Source of the DNA: Pseudovibrio axinellae
GTDB taxonomy: Bacteria > Pseudomonadota > Alphaproteobacteria > Rhizobiales > Stappiaceae
Assembly: GCF_900110875.1 (NCBI RefSeq)
Contig: NZ_FOFM01000007.1
Location: forward strand, 1 to 64,000
Direction of reading: 5' to 3'
DNA: 64,000 nucleotides
In this document: piece by piece, positions 13,796 through 17,931 of the stretch
Position numbering within the stretch: position 1 is the stretch's first letter
How the letters are laid out: each line of letters starts with the position of its first letter
Notes under the pieces: model-generated
Databases searched by the model: none
Told to the model about the DNA's origin: nothing
What the model saw: the letters and a program-made list of their open reading frames with translations, nothing else
Position numbers and translations under genes: made by a program

Positions 13796-14689
13796 ATGGC
13801 CCGGAACCTACCAGCCCTCACGGGTGGCGAAGGCGGCTTAAGCCGCTACTTAGATGAGATTAGAAAATTCCCGATGCTTCAGCCGCAGGAAGAGTATATG
13901 CTCGCCAAGCGTTTCCGGGAACATGACGAACCAAAAGCAGCCGAACGGCTGGTGAACTCCCACTTGCGCCTTGTTGCTAAGATTGCCATGGGTTATCGCG
14001 GCTATGGCTTGCCTTTGGGCGAAGTCATCTCAGAAGGCAATGTGGGCCTTATGCAGGCTGTAAAACGCTTTGAGCCCGATAAAGGCTTCAGGCTCGCAAC
14101 CTACGCAATGTGGTGGATCAAAGCCTCCATCCAAGAATACATTCTCCGCACATGGTCCCTCGTAAAGATGGGCACCACAGCAAACCAAAAACGCCTGTTC
14201 TTCAACCTGCGTCGGGTCAAAGGCAAGATTCAGGCTTTTGAAGATGGTGATTTGCGTCCTGATCAGGTCAAGCACATCGCAACAACCCTGGGCGTTTCAG
14301 AAACCGAAGTTGTTTCCATGAACCGCCGCCTTGGTGGTGACTCCTCCTTGAACGCTCCGCTTCGTTCATCAGAAGGTGAGTCAAGCGAATGGCAGGACTG
14401 GTTGGTTGATGACGCTGACAGTCAGGAAGCTGTCCTTGCTGAGCAGGAAGAGTTCGATGTTCGCCGCGAAATGCTGAAAAAAGCTATGAGTGTGCTGAAC
14501 CCGCGCGAAACCCGCATTTTCGAAGCACGTCGCCTCTCTGAAAGTCCAATCACGCTTGAAGAACTCTCCACTGAGTTTGGTGTAAGTCGCGAACGCGTGC
14601 GCCAAATCGAGGTCCGTGCATTCGAGAAAGTCCAAAAGGCCGTTCAAGAAAGCGCACTGCAAATGGCTGGTGCACAGGCAAGCGTCTAA
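13796..14689 (+). CDS. rpoH: RNA polymerase heat-shock sigma factor RpoH (sigma32)
   Basis: Directs RNA polymerase to heat-shock promoters. 297 residues with region 1.2/2 at about 15-135, including the S-H-L-R-L-V core-binding segment and the Trp-Trp-Ile-Lys -10-reading motif, the RpoH box around N-Q-K-R-L-F-F-N-L-R (about 128-137) that separates RpoH from other group-3 sigmas, and region 4 with a helix-turn-helix at about 255-282 (S-R-E-R-V-R-Q-I). Alphaproteobacteria often carry two rpoH genes; which one this is cannot be told. RBS AGAGG lies about 9 bases before the ATG. The mRNA 5' end is not long enough here to judge a thermosensor. Confidence 0.97.
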   Translation: MARNLPALTGGEGGLSRYLDEIRKFPMLQPQEEYMLAKRFREHDEPKAAERLVNSHLRLVAKIAMGYRGYGLPLGEVISEGNVGLMQAVKRFEPDKGFRLATYAMWWIKASIQEYILRTWSLVKMGTTANQKRLFFNLRRVKGKIQAFEDGDLRPDQVKHIATTLGVSETEVVSMNRRLGGDSSLNAPLRSSEGESSEWQDWLVDDADSQEAVLAEQEEFDVRREMLKKAMSVLNPRETRIFEARRLSESPITLEELSTEFGVSRERVRQIEVRAFEKVQKAVQESALQMAGAQASV

Positions 14690-14783
14690 CAGATGCTTGC
14701 CTGCATAAAGCTTGAGTTGAATTAACCTAAAATATAAATTGGTTGTCGCAACAGTCTTTTAAATCAACAGTCAGCCTTGTCGC

Positions 14784-14862
14784 CCCCTCACCCCTTACCT
14801 AAGGTTAACGATGAGGGGAATTTATGTGAGTTGGGTCACATCCCCTCAATGGGGGGAAGTAA
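14784..14862 (+). promoter_or_regulatory. Possible alternating-hairpin 5' leader
   Basis: CCCCTCA occurs at 14784-14790 and again at 14842-14848; TGAGGGG at 14812-14818 can pair with either. The second copy can also pair with the GGGGGG of the ribosome site (14851-14856). These pairings are mutually exclusive, so the leader could open or close the start of the downstream CHASE2 gene. Structure seen by eye only. Confidence 0.4.
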
Positions 14863-16920
14863 ATGTTTGACACCGGCTGGCTGTCACAAACCAACCGCGC
14901 GCTCGCTGCGGTAGTGTCTCTTTTAATCATCGCTATCGCTCTGATTACACGCACACTTTACCCGCAGGCGCTGGATGGGGTCGCATATCTCAGCCAAAAT
15001 GCATTGCAGCTGTCGTGGTCAAACACAGCCCCCGCCCTGCCGGTATATACGGTGCACCTCACACCACAATCACACCAGCAAACACAGCCCCCGGTGTATC
15101 AGCGGTTGGAGTTAGCTCAAGTCCTTCAAAATATTGGGCAATACAACCCCAAGCTCGTCCTTATTGACGTCGACCTGAGAAAGGTGGATCCAGCGTCTCC
15201 GACGCTGCGAGGCAATATCTATGACAGCTTACAACCCTCAATAAAAACCACCTATCCGAACCATGATCTGCTTCTACAGACCATAGTTTCCCACCACTCA
15301 GTTCTACTCAATAGGCCACTCTCGGATGCTGTCGCAAACAGGCCACCGCTTTCAAATTACATAAGGTTTTCGCGGGCCAGCGGGTATCAAGCCGATGAGC
15401 ACTACGCTAATGGCTCTGCATCTTTACTTTATCCTCTTCAGCACAGCAGCGGCGAGCAGCAACAACCATCGCTTGCACTAATGGCATGGAATCTAGGGGC
15501 TTCCGCTCCTCCCGTTGCAACAACAATGAGCGAGCAAAGTGGCTTCCTCAATGTCAATGGCTTCGCAGTTCCGGTTACGTCGACAAAGGAAATGTTCATC
15601 CACAAAGCCAGAGCGTCCAGCGACTACATACTCTCTGCAAACAACATACTAAATGGCACGGTTGCAGCTTCCGTGTGGCCTCCATCACCTGAGAGTTACG
15701 TGGTCATTGGAACGCAACAGAGAAGTTCGCAGCGGCATGCACAAGCGTTGCAGACACTTCAAAACGCCCGTTTCATCACCATTCCAAATTGGTCACAATA
15801 TATTGAAATAACAGCGATAATTCTTATTGGGCTCTCTGTGACTATTGTGGCTGCAACACAAACTGTCTGGTTCAGCCTGTCATTCACACTGCTTGCAATA
15901 TTTCTTGTAAACGGAGTTGCATTTCATCAGTTTGCCCTTGAGAAAATCCTGCTTGAACCGCTCTTCCCCTCTCTTATTTTGCTGCTGATATTTGCGTCGT
16001 CCTGCACGATCAGGCGAGTGACACTGAAGAGCCACCGGACACAAACCGCTGAACGATATGCAAGTATCCTTTCCCCAAAACAGATGCAAAAAATGCTCAA
16101 CACGCCAGAGCAGTTGGCACTGGAGGGACAGCAACGTGAAATCACATGCCTCTCCACACGCCTGAGGCACTTTCACCAATACTATGAAGGATTATCACCT
16201 CACGACTTAGCAAGCTTCTCAAACAGCTTCCAAACGGCACACCTTGAAGATGTTCATGCACAACATGGCACCCTCAATACGCTTCGGACCTCAGGGTTGA
16301 GCGCTTATTGGAACGCACCGCTTGACGACCCATTCCATGCGTCTCATGCCCGCCGTACAGCCGGTGACATGCAAAAGCAAATGCAACGCTTCAACACGAA
16401 GGACCGTTTCCGCTTCAGTCATAAGAACATGAAGAACCACGAAGTTACTCTGGACATTGGTATTTCGACAGGATTGGCAACACTTGGTGAGACAGGGACC
16501 CGGCGCCACTTCAGATATGCCCCATTGGGTAAATGTGTGGACTTGGCAAATGACCTTGCTCGCCATTGCAAGGAGGCCGGGCACAACCTCTTAATCTGCG
16601 AAACCACGCGCGGGCAACTGCCCGAATGTGCCACGCTTGAAACCATTCCGGTACAAACAAGCCGCTACCAGGTGCGCGCCTTTGCGCTTTTGGGCGATCC
16701 CTCGCTAGCTTTTTCAGAGGAGTTTCTCAAACTCAAACAAATGCATTGCAACATGGTTTACGCGTTGTACGAGGAAGAGGACAAAGAGAAAGCACTCACG
16801 TTGCTGGATGAGTGCAAATCACATTGTGCACCGGAATACACCGCCATCTACACAGCCTTTGAAAAACACATTCTTGACCATTTGATGCTGCACGAACCCG
16901 TTGAAGATGCTGCCCAGTAG
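14863..16920 (+). CDS. CHASE2 sensor fused to a degenerate class III nucleotide cyclase domain
   Basis: 685 residues, membrane protein. Helix at about 11-30, an extracytoplasmic CHASE2-like sensor to about 300, three further helices at about 312-383, then a cytoplasmic class III adenylate/guanylate cyclase homology domain at about 420-615. The fold motifs are visible (Tyr-Trp-Asn-Ala-Pro at 482-486; G-I-S-T-G at 533-537; Y-x-x-L-G at 552-556), yet the metal-binding aspartates appear as R433 and S477, the substrate lysine as T473, and the transition-state Asn/Arg as D560/D564. It is therefore probably a non-catalytic pseudo-cyclase acting as sensor or partner. The reading frame is intact. Stands alone downstream of rpoH. 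Confidence 0.85.
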   Translation: MFDTGWLSQTNRALAAVVSLLIIAIALITRTLYPQALDGVAYLSQNALQLSWSNTAPALPVYTVHLTPQSHQQTQPPVYQRLELAQVLQNIGQYNPKLVLIDVDLRKVDPASPTLRGNIYDSLQPSIKTTYPNHDLLLQTIVSHHSVLLNRPLSDAVANRPPLSNYIRFSRASGYQADEHYANGSASLLYPLQHSSGEQQQPSLALMAWNLGASAPPVATTMSEQSGFLNVNGFAVPVTSTKEMFIHKARASSDYILSANNILNGTVAASVWPPSPESYVVIGTQQRSSQRHAQALQTLQNARFITIPNWSQYIEITAIILIGLSVTIVAATQTVWFSLSFTLLAIFLVNGVAFHQFALEKILLEPLFPSLILLLIFASSCTIRRVTLKSHRTQTAERYASILSPKQMQKMLNTPEQLALEGQQREITCLSTRLRHFHQYYEGLSPHDLASFSNSFQTAHLEDVHAQHGTLNTLRTSGLSAYWNAPLDDPFHASHARRTAGDMQKQMQRFNTKDRFRFSHKNMKNHEVTLDIGISTGLATLGETGTRRHFRYAPLGKCVDLANDLARHCKEAGHNLLICETTRGQLPECATLETIPVQTSRYQVRAFALLGDPSLAFSEEFLKLKQMHCNMVYALYEEEDKEKALTLLDECKSHCAPEYTAIYTAFEKHILDHLMLHEPVEDAAQ

Positions 16921-16992: not shown

Positions 16993-17931
16993 TTAGCGCA
17001 ATTCAACCGCATAGGTTTCAACAGGCGGCGCTGTTTTAATGAGCCCCTGTTCAATCAGAAAATTCGCGAAACGCTCATAGCGACCGATATCCAGTGCAGC
17101 TGGCCGGTTCGCAAAACGTGGCAGCGTATCTGCCCATGCGCGCTTGTTCAGTTCATCATCAAGGTTTGGATAGACCTCAAGGAAACCTTTCCAGGAATCC
17201 TCTGGGTTGTTCAGCAAGTAAACTGTTGCCGCTTCGATTGCAGTGATGAACTTCTTCAAACGAGGATCATCAAGCTTGTCTTTATGAGCCACATAAATCA
17301 GCTCATCGTAAACCGGAACACCATGCTCCTCAGGATAGAACGCACGGCCTTTCGCACCCTCAATTTCCATCTGGTTCAGCTCAAAGTTACGGTAACCGCC
17401 AATCACCGCATCAACCTGCCCCGCCATCAAAGCAGGAGAAAGAGAGAAGTTCACATTGATCAGCTCAACATCGTCGGTCGCAAGGCCAGCATTGGCAAAC
17501 ATCTTCCCAAGCATCGCACTTTCAAAACCGGACGTCGAATAACCAATCCGTTTACCTTTCAGGTCTGCAATTTCTTTGATTGGGCCATCTTCCAAAACCA
17601 ACAACGTATTCAATGGCGTAGCAACCAATGTCCCAATACGCGTAAGCGGCATACCCTCATCAATTTGCGGGTGCAGAATCGGCTGATAAGAGACTGCGAT
17701 ATCCCCTTGGCCAGCAGCAACCAATTTAGGTGGCATAGAGGGGTCAGCTGGTTCAATCAATTCAACATCAAGGCCCTCTTTTTCAAAGAACCCTCGTGCC
17801 TTCGCAACAACGATTGGCGCATGATCTGGGTTAGCAAACCAATCCAGCAACACTGTCAGTTTATCAGCTGCTTGCACCTGAAGCGTACTTGCAAGCATTG
17901 CCGTCCCAAACAACATACCTAATTTTTTCAT
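16993..17931 (-). CDS. thiY: ABC transporter substrate-binding protein, ThiY-like pyrimidine precursor carrier
   Basis: Periplasmic binding protein of the NMT1/THI5-like family, 312 residues, with a signal peptide cleaved near residue 21 (Val-Gln-Ala-Ala). The L-D-W-F-A-N-P-D-H segment at about 30-38 is characteristic of ThiY and THI5-type proteins that bind thiamine pyrimidine precursors such as formylaminopyrimidine (HMP precursors). It follows the permease by 27 bases under a TPP riboswitch, which strongly supports a role in thiamine salvage. The exact ligand is inferred, and sulfonate/taurine binding (same superfamily) is made unlikely by the riboswitch. Confidence 0.85.
   Translation of the reverse strand: MKKLGMLFGTAMLASTLQVQAADKLTVLLDWFANPDHAPIVVAKARGFFEKEGLDVELIEPADPSMPPKLVAAGQGDIAVSYQPILHPQIDEGMPLTRIGTLVATPLNTLLVLEDGPIKEIADLKGKRIGYSTSGFESAMLGKMFANAGLATDDVELINVNFSLSPALMAGQVDAVIGGYRNFELNQMEIEGAKGRAFYPEEHGVPVYDELIYVAHKDKLDDPRLKKFITAIEAATVYLLNNPEDSWKGFLEVYPNLDDELNKRAWADTLPRFANRPAALDIGRYERFANFLIEQGLIKTAPPVETYAVELR

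Follow-up and report, generated by a model that had tools for sequence, protein, structure and literature searches.

Ordinary CHASE2 cyclases sense the outside of the cell and change cAMP; according to PMC13001267, CyaD1, CyaD2, and CyaK of S. meliloti respond to a plant ribosomal protein via outer-membrane NsrA. Class III cyclases act as dimers, and PMC8815786 describes eukaryotic cyclase dimers with one degenerate site, including mammalian tmAC heterodimers, whose halves complement each other into one site. Pseudoenzymes are already known as a kind. In c-di-GMP signalling, LapD and CsrD are degenerate GGDEF/EAL membrane receptors in which a sensor is joined to a nucleotide-enzyme fold that is dead and exerts its effect by contact, and they provide an analogy for contact output. 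Searches of open-licence papers gave us no bacterial CHASE2 receptor with genus-wide loss of six catalytic residues and canonical relatives at the same locus.

We analyzed a 64,000-nucleotide stretch of DNA (the window; positions 1 to 64,000 of contig NZ_FOFM01000007.1) from Pseudovibrio axinellae (Stappiaceae), whose genus has been found in marine sponges and in other animals. One of its genes encodes a protein with the same order of parts as CyaD1, CyaD2, and CyaK (PMC13001267): an N-terminal helix, CHASE2, membrane helices, and a cyclase fold. Relatives with the full set of catalytic residues occupy the same locus in sister genera, whereas the Pseudovibrio protein has none of these residues, a much diverged CHASE2, and residues that are newly invariant, among them D104, H134, and those at 617-622. 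It resembles the tmAC heterodimers of PMC8815786 in having a cyclase fold that lacks catalytic residues, but it has lost both sets of residues, and its neighborhood encodes no partner. LapD and CsrD share with it the coupling of a sensor to a dead nucleotide-enzyme fold, although fold and messenger are unrelated and action by contact is a proposal for Pseudovibrio. The evidence presented below makes it probable that a CHASE2 adenylate cyclase lost its active site on the Pseudovibrio stem and was kept throughout the genus as a pseudoenzyme, a transmembrane receptor acting by contact.

A CHASE2 receptor with a degenerate cyclase domain downstream of rpoH

The gene, its neighbors, and the parts of its product are as follows.

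13796..14689, + strand: rpoH (heat-shock sigma factor), conserved upstream neighbor (Sigma70 domains; synteny)
14813..14856, + strand: putative leader with a conserved hairpin, a GGGGGG ribosome site, and TGTGA-N6-TCACA
14863..16920, + strand: 685-aa CHASE2 receptor whose class III cyclase domain is degenerate (ATG-started open frame; homologues in 13 other Pseudovibrio genomes)
14887..14967, + strand: membrane helix 1, aa 9-35 (hydropathy, 9-35; model helix, 4-32)
14956..15762, + strand: CHASE2 sensor domain, aa 32-300 (Pfam PF05226; predicted to lie outside the inner membrane)
15793..16059, + strand: three membrane helices, aa 311-332, 335-360, and 367-399 (hydropathy, 311-388; model helices)
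16120..16698, + strand: pseudo-cyclase domain, aa 420-612
16693..16728, + strand: junction motif GDxSxAFSExFL, aa 611-622 (F617, S618, E619, and L622 invariant in 14/14 Pseudovibrio copies, variable in active sister proteins)
16993..17931, - strand: NMT1/THI5-like substrate-binding protein gene, downstream neighbor (PF09084; synteny)

The protein has the makeup of a CHASE2 receptor, a domain above the Pfam cut-off followed by membrane helices. The PF05226 match scored 28.2 bits against a cut-off of 26.3 (21.9 bits in the genome-frame search), about 28 bits versus 197 in the active sister protein L063. The PF00211 match fell below its cut-off (14.3 versus 21.9 bits). The cyclase fold is present in the predicted structure of the single chain (pTM 0.53), with its strands and loops arranged as they are around the pocket of relatives. 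The intact fold and the intact 685-codon frame described in the initial annotation were thus both recovered, and none of the 14 Pseudovibrio frames has an internal stop.

Occurrence was analyzed in 16 Pseudovibrio genomes, the window's genome included, and the gene is present in 14 of them. The 13 further homologues cover most or all of the 685 residues; all 13 lie in the order rluD-rpoH-gene, with the NMT1-type gene downstream (about 3.6 kb further in G001). The upstream neighbor is taken to be RpoH by resemblance. A targeted scan returned 17 related loci, of which 10 carry Pseudovibrio names (including P. ascidiaceicola, P. denitrificans, P. japonicus, P. stylochi, P. hongkongensis, and P. 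flavus). In genomes G007 and G011 (loci L128 and L129), the gene is cleanly missing, and 61 and 99 bases separate rpoH from the NMT1-type gene; there, at least, the cell can do without it. G011 also has a second rpoH-like gene (L091, G011:C6:231312-232163) with one stop codon within the matched stretch.

The CHASE2 model gave at most one match per Pseudovibrio genome, in 12 of the 16, and its sensitivity is limited, since the copies in G003 and G010 escaped it. In the window's genome, a profile search found no second CHASE2 match. This genome encodes four further class III cyclases above the Pfam cut-off, and no CHASE2 was found in them, two having been scanned with Pfam and the others read as translations. 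A sub-threshold HAMP was seen in one of the two scanned (L031).

All six catalytic residues are absent from the Pseudovibrio copies

The residues at the six catalytic positions of the window protein are listed here.

16159..16161, + strand: R433, at the first metal Asp
16279..16281, + strand: T473, at the substrate-specifying Lys
16291..16293, + strand: S477, at the second metal Asp
16531..16533, + strand: K557, at the adenine-specifying Asp
16540..16542, + strand: D560, at the transition-state Asn
16552..16554, + strand: D564, at the transition-state Arg

These six substitutions had been read from the single sequence in the initial annotation, and HMMER and MAFFT alignments agree on each of them. 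This agreement rejects the idea that the catalytic residues moved to other positions, and the same loss in 13 further genomes rejects an oddity of one genome. In the alignment, the two metal Asp, the substrate-specifying Lys and Asp, and the transition-state Asn and Arg are missing from all 14 copies. Ten closer (core) species have mostly R/T/S/K/D/D at these positions, and the four deeper copies have KRGNDS, KRGNEE, QFKPKK, and GTCHED. The deep and core copies thus carry different replacements, and no replacement is fixed across Pseudovibrio. The question of whether orthologues share the substitutions therefore has a divided answer: loss of all six is common to 14/14, but there is no single signature. 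A loss common to all copies argues that catalysis was lost, as first proposed from the window alone.

The 22 active homologues share 49 invariant columns. Of these, 10/10 core copies retain 27 and 14/14 copies retain 13, and the structural columns W483-P486, G542, G545, Y552, and G556 are kept in all 14. None of the six catalytic columns is unchanged in the core copies; with 22 columns changed there, all six would be among them by chance with a probability of 0.005 (calculated by hand). On these alignments, residue loss is targeted at the active site. A model built from active proteins alone, used as a control, still recovered all 14 Pseudovibrio copies (worst E, 2e-35).

Two readings would leave the altered pocket with a function of its own. 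That the protein remains catalytic through an unusual active site is scarcely credible: the pocket strands and loops are modelled in the relatives' arrangement, yet all six residues differ from those of active enzymes and differ again among lineages. A degenerate site that binds a new small molecule, a nucleotide or another compound, and so makes the protein a ligand-gated sensor on both faces, is improbable, though somewhat less so. In the ten core species, some of the chemistry at 557, 560, and 564 persists (K or R in 10, D in 10, and D in 8, respectively), but the four deep copies differ there (N, N, P, and H at 557; D, E, K, and E at 560; S, E, K, and D at 564), so that no pocket is conserved over the genus, and both the metal-binding and the base-binding pairs have disappeared.

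A further reading makes the protein a dominant-negative subunit, which would form mixed dimers with an active class III cyclase and lower cAMP upon CHASE2 engagement. The dimeric habit of class III cyclases, the heterodimers with degenerate sites covered by PMC8815786, the four possible dimer mates in the genome, and the structural columns kept in 14/14 copies are all compatible with it. Complementing subunits keep one set of catalytic residues, and here both sets are lost; no complete site could form, which makes an activating role impossible, and a mixed dimer could only inhibit. In addition, no second CHASE2 match was found in the genome, the four potential mates included. We consider this reading unlikely, and the earlier suggestion of dimerization with an active cyclase is correspondingly weakened.

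Related loci in the Stappiaceae and the order mostly encode canonical cyclases

The best homologue in each of six genomes from sister genera (Stappiaceae) has DKDDNR at the six catalytic positions. Five of the six come after rluD-rpoH, and four adjoin the NMT1-type gene on the other side; near the homologue of G020, the NMT1-type gene is present and no rpoH lies within the stretch read. No gene of this kind was found beside rpoH in G016, G017, and G022. We also searched 87 Stappiaceae genomes with L063 as the query and took the 30 best loci. All 30 read DKDDNR, in a first reading that chose frames partly by FWNA or DKY motifs and so leans toward intact copies; match coordinates gave DKDDNR again in 29/29 readable loci, L123 having it in the first reading only. 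Together, after removal of three genomes counted twice, DKDDNR was found in 33/33 other Stappiaceae genomes, a sample that favors copies resembling the active query and in which rpoH linkage was examined in six.

For the order, 199 genomes were searched, and 90 CHASE2 matches were sampled non-randomly, the 30 best plus 60 picked by hand down the list; one of the 90, L188, is from the Stappiaceae. Counting the best cyclase hit per locus, whether or not in the CHASE2 frame, 86 of the 90 have a cyclase domain, and the other four end, by eye, like EAL or histidine-kinase proteins. Among the 86 CHASE2 cyclases, 73 are DKDDNR, 12 are altered at one or two positions with both Asp kept, and one, L229 (G039), shows partial loss (QRDDGR). 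Loss of all six was seen in none of these 86. Four loci from planctomycete MAGs (L079-L082; DDDSNR, DDDNNR, DDDANR, and DDDKNR) have Asp at the substrate-Lys position and retain both metal Asp, the Asn, and the Arg. A general link to rpoH outside the Stappiaceae was not borne out, as loci L021-L030 gave no rpoH hit; these loci mostly include about 0.4-0.7 kb of upstream sequence, so only a directly adjacent rpoH is excluded.

A maximum-likelihood tree (36 proteins, 682 columns, LG+F+G4) unites the 14 Pseudovibrio copies in a monophyletic group, separated from the active proteins by 1.18 substitutions/site (UFboot 100). The 14 sister proteins have a stem of 0.13. Deep branching within Pseudovibrio is less certain (81-84). 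The genus joins the tree on its long branch where the sister genera meet other families, so the tree alone gives no proof of kinship with the sister genera, and that link rests on synteny. The rpoH linkage is older than the residue loss. The shared rpoH locus, the intact sister cyclases, and the loss in 14/14 copies indicate that an active cyclase became a pseudoenzyme, on the simplest reading once, on the Pseudovibrio stem. The Pseudovibrio protein would accordingly descend from an active CHASE2 cyclase, the activity of the sister proteins being deduced from their residues.

The degenerate domain is under purifying selection

Pairwise omega was calculated by the simple NG86 method for five close pairs of 45, with some sequences shared between pairs. 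For residues 401-600, the values were 0.021, 0.022, 0.040, 0.059, and 0.065; in the same pairs, they were 0.127-0.227 for CHASE2, 0.121-0.254 for the membrane part, and 0-0.194 for the C-terminal part. The dead cyclase domain is therefore the most constrained large domain of the protein. Two active sister pairs gave 0.048 and 0.063 for the cyclase part and 0.041 and 0.120 for CHASE2, and nine comparisons of the flanking rpoH, rluD, and NMT1-type genes gave 0-0.062. The ten core copies have a median identity of 0.82 in the dead domain, 0.82 in the C-terminal part, and 0.62 in CHASE2.

A gene dying because its signal had been lost could show several of the features seen here: fast divergence of the stem and deep branches, absence from 2/16 genomes, and the low CHASE2 score relative to L063. 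This explanation is very improbable, contradicted as it is by the open frames of all 14 copies and by omega in the dead domain (0.02-0.07) about as low as in the two active sister pairs. Fold and frame are kept under purifying selection, as expected of a pseudoenzyme, and, to judge from the substitution patterns, the pseudo-cyclase is not decaying. The strength of this selection on the dead domain also supports the earlier idea that the gene is retained for another role.

Newly fixed residues and the leader

Fifty-two positions are invariant in all 14 Pseudovibrio copies, and 11 of them are held by no more than half of the 14 sister proteins. Five of the 11 lie in CHASE2 (T63, D104, Y120, H134, and L138); the others are E588, F617, S618, E619, L622, and A665. 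None falls in the core fold (395-587), so no new contact surface is visible there. F617, S618, E619, and L622 sit at the junction from the cyclase fold to the C-terminal helices; this cluster of four at 617-622 is suggestive (permutation, 0.058 among invariant positions and 0.003 across all positions). We infer that the sensor was retuned and that a new constraint arose behind the cyclase fold, and it is on this account that signalling by contact is preferred.

The leader contains a hairpin that is kept in ten species (GAGGGGA...GTGA...TCAC...TCCCCTC; GTCA...TGAC in one species). Covariation is thin, with one of 21 pairs changed on both sides and U-G for U-A in three. Its C-run could pair instead with the GGGGGG ribosome site, which would make the two folds mutually exclusive. 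A perfect CRP-like palindrome, TGTGA-N6-TCACA, lies at 14825-14840, 22 bases before the start codon; 0.07 such sites were expected in shuffles of the window, and the genome holds six versus three for a reversed control. Another of the six precedes a CRP-family gene (L156) by about 100 bases. The palindrome was found in none of the six sister leaders examined, and no Rfam match was obtained in 14500-15000 at E 1. The changes in the leaders of relatives appear to fit an RNA hairpin as well as a candidate CRP site.

A second lineage of pseudo-cyclases

The targeted scan covered seven loci outside Pseudovibrio, four of them the planctomycete loci L079-L082. The other three encode further CHASE2 receptors with five or six catalytic residues lost.

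L076, 3720-5990: second-lineage pseudo-cyclase (GRAKIK, six lost; MAG titled Rhizobium sp. Q54)
L078, 4347-6692: second-lineage pseudo-cyclase (GRAEVK, six lost; MAG titled Rhizobium sp. Q54)
L077, 3909-6140: second-lineage pseudo-cyclase (GRADME, five lost; Beijerinckiaceae MAG)

Like the Pseudovibrio protein, all three retain WNAP. They differ from it in having a strong CHASE2 (177-185 bits, with a Guanylate_cyc match below the cut-off or none), in genomic setting (an Exo_endo_phos gene 8 bases upstream in L076 and L077, and no adjacent rpoH within the available stretch), in the AFSE motif, which was not found in the three proteins, and in looser constraint (omega 0.17-0.21 in the cyclase part, three pairs). 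A tree including them groups them with other families (clade UFboot 100), apart from Pseudovibrio, on a branch of their own of 1.21; their closest placement has a support of 62 only. As they are separate from Pseudovibrio, the loss arose at least twice.

Discussion

An active site that is lost within a preserved shape suggests that the protein probably signals by contact with a partner, and a CHASE2 receptor with the cyclase fold as its protein-contact output is the best remaining mechanism that the comparisons point to. The periplasmic CHASE2 would still sense a signal, which would pass through the membrane helices and linker to a presumably dimeric cyclase fold; the rearranged fold, with its newly constrained junction at 611-622, would then, in place of cAMP synthesis, alter how it touches a partner protein. 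A more detailed version is possible but distinctly more tentative: the genus turned a one-component cAMP receptor into a protein-contact receptor by retuning the CHASE2 input at T63, D104, Y120, H134, and L138, with output via GDxSxAFSExFL, perhaps on RpoH or another cyclase. RpoH enters as a candidate partner as a neighbor only.

Signalling by bacterial class III cyclases is attributed to the cAMP or cGMP that they produce. At this one locus, sister genera carry a canonical cyclase and Pseudovibrio carries a strongly conserved version without catalytic residues, which amounts to a natural experiment on non-catalytic roles of the fold. The second lineage suggests that such loss recurs, and CHASE2 receptors may have gone this way more than once. 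Counts of cyclases by CHASE2 or by fold alone would overstate cAMP signalling in Pseudovibrio.
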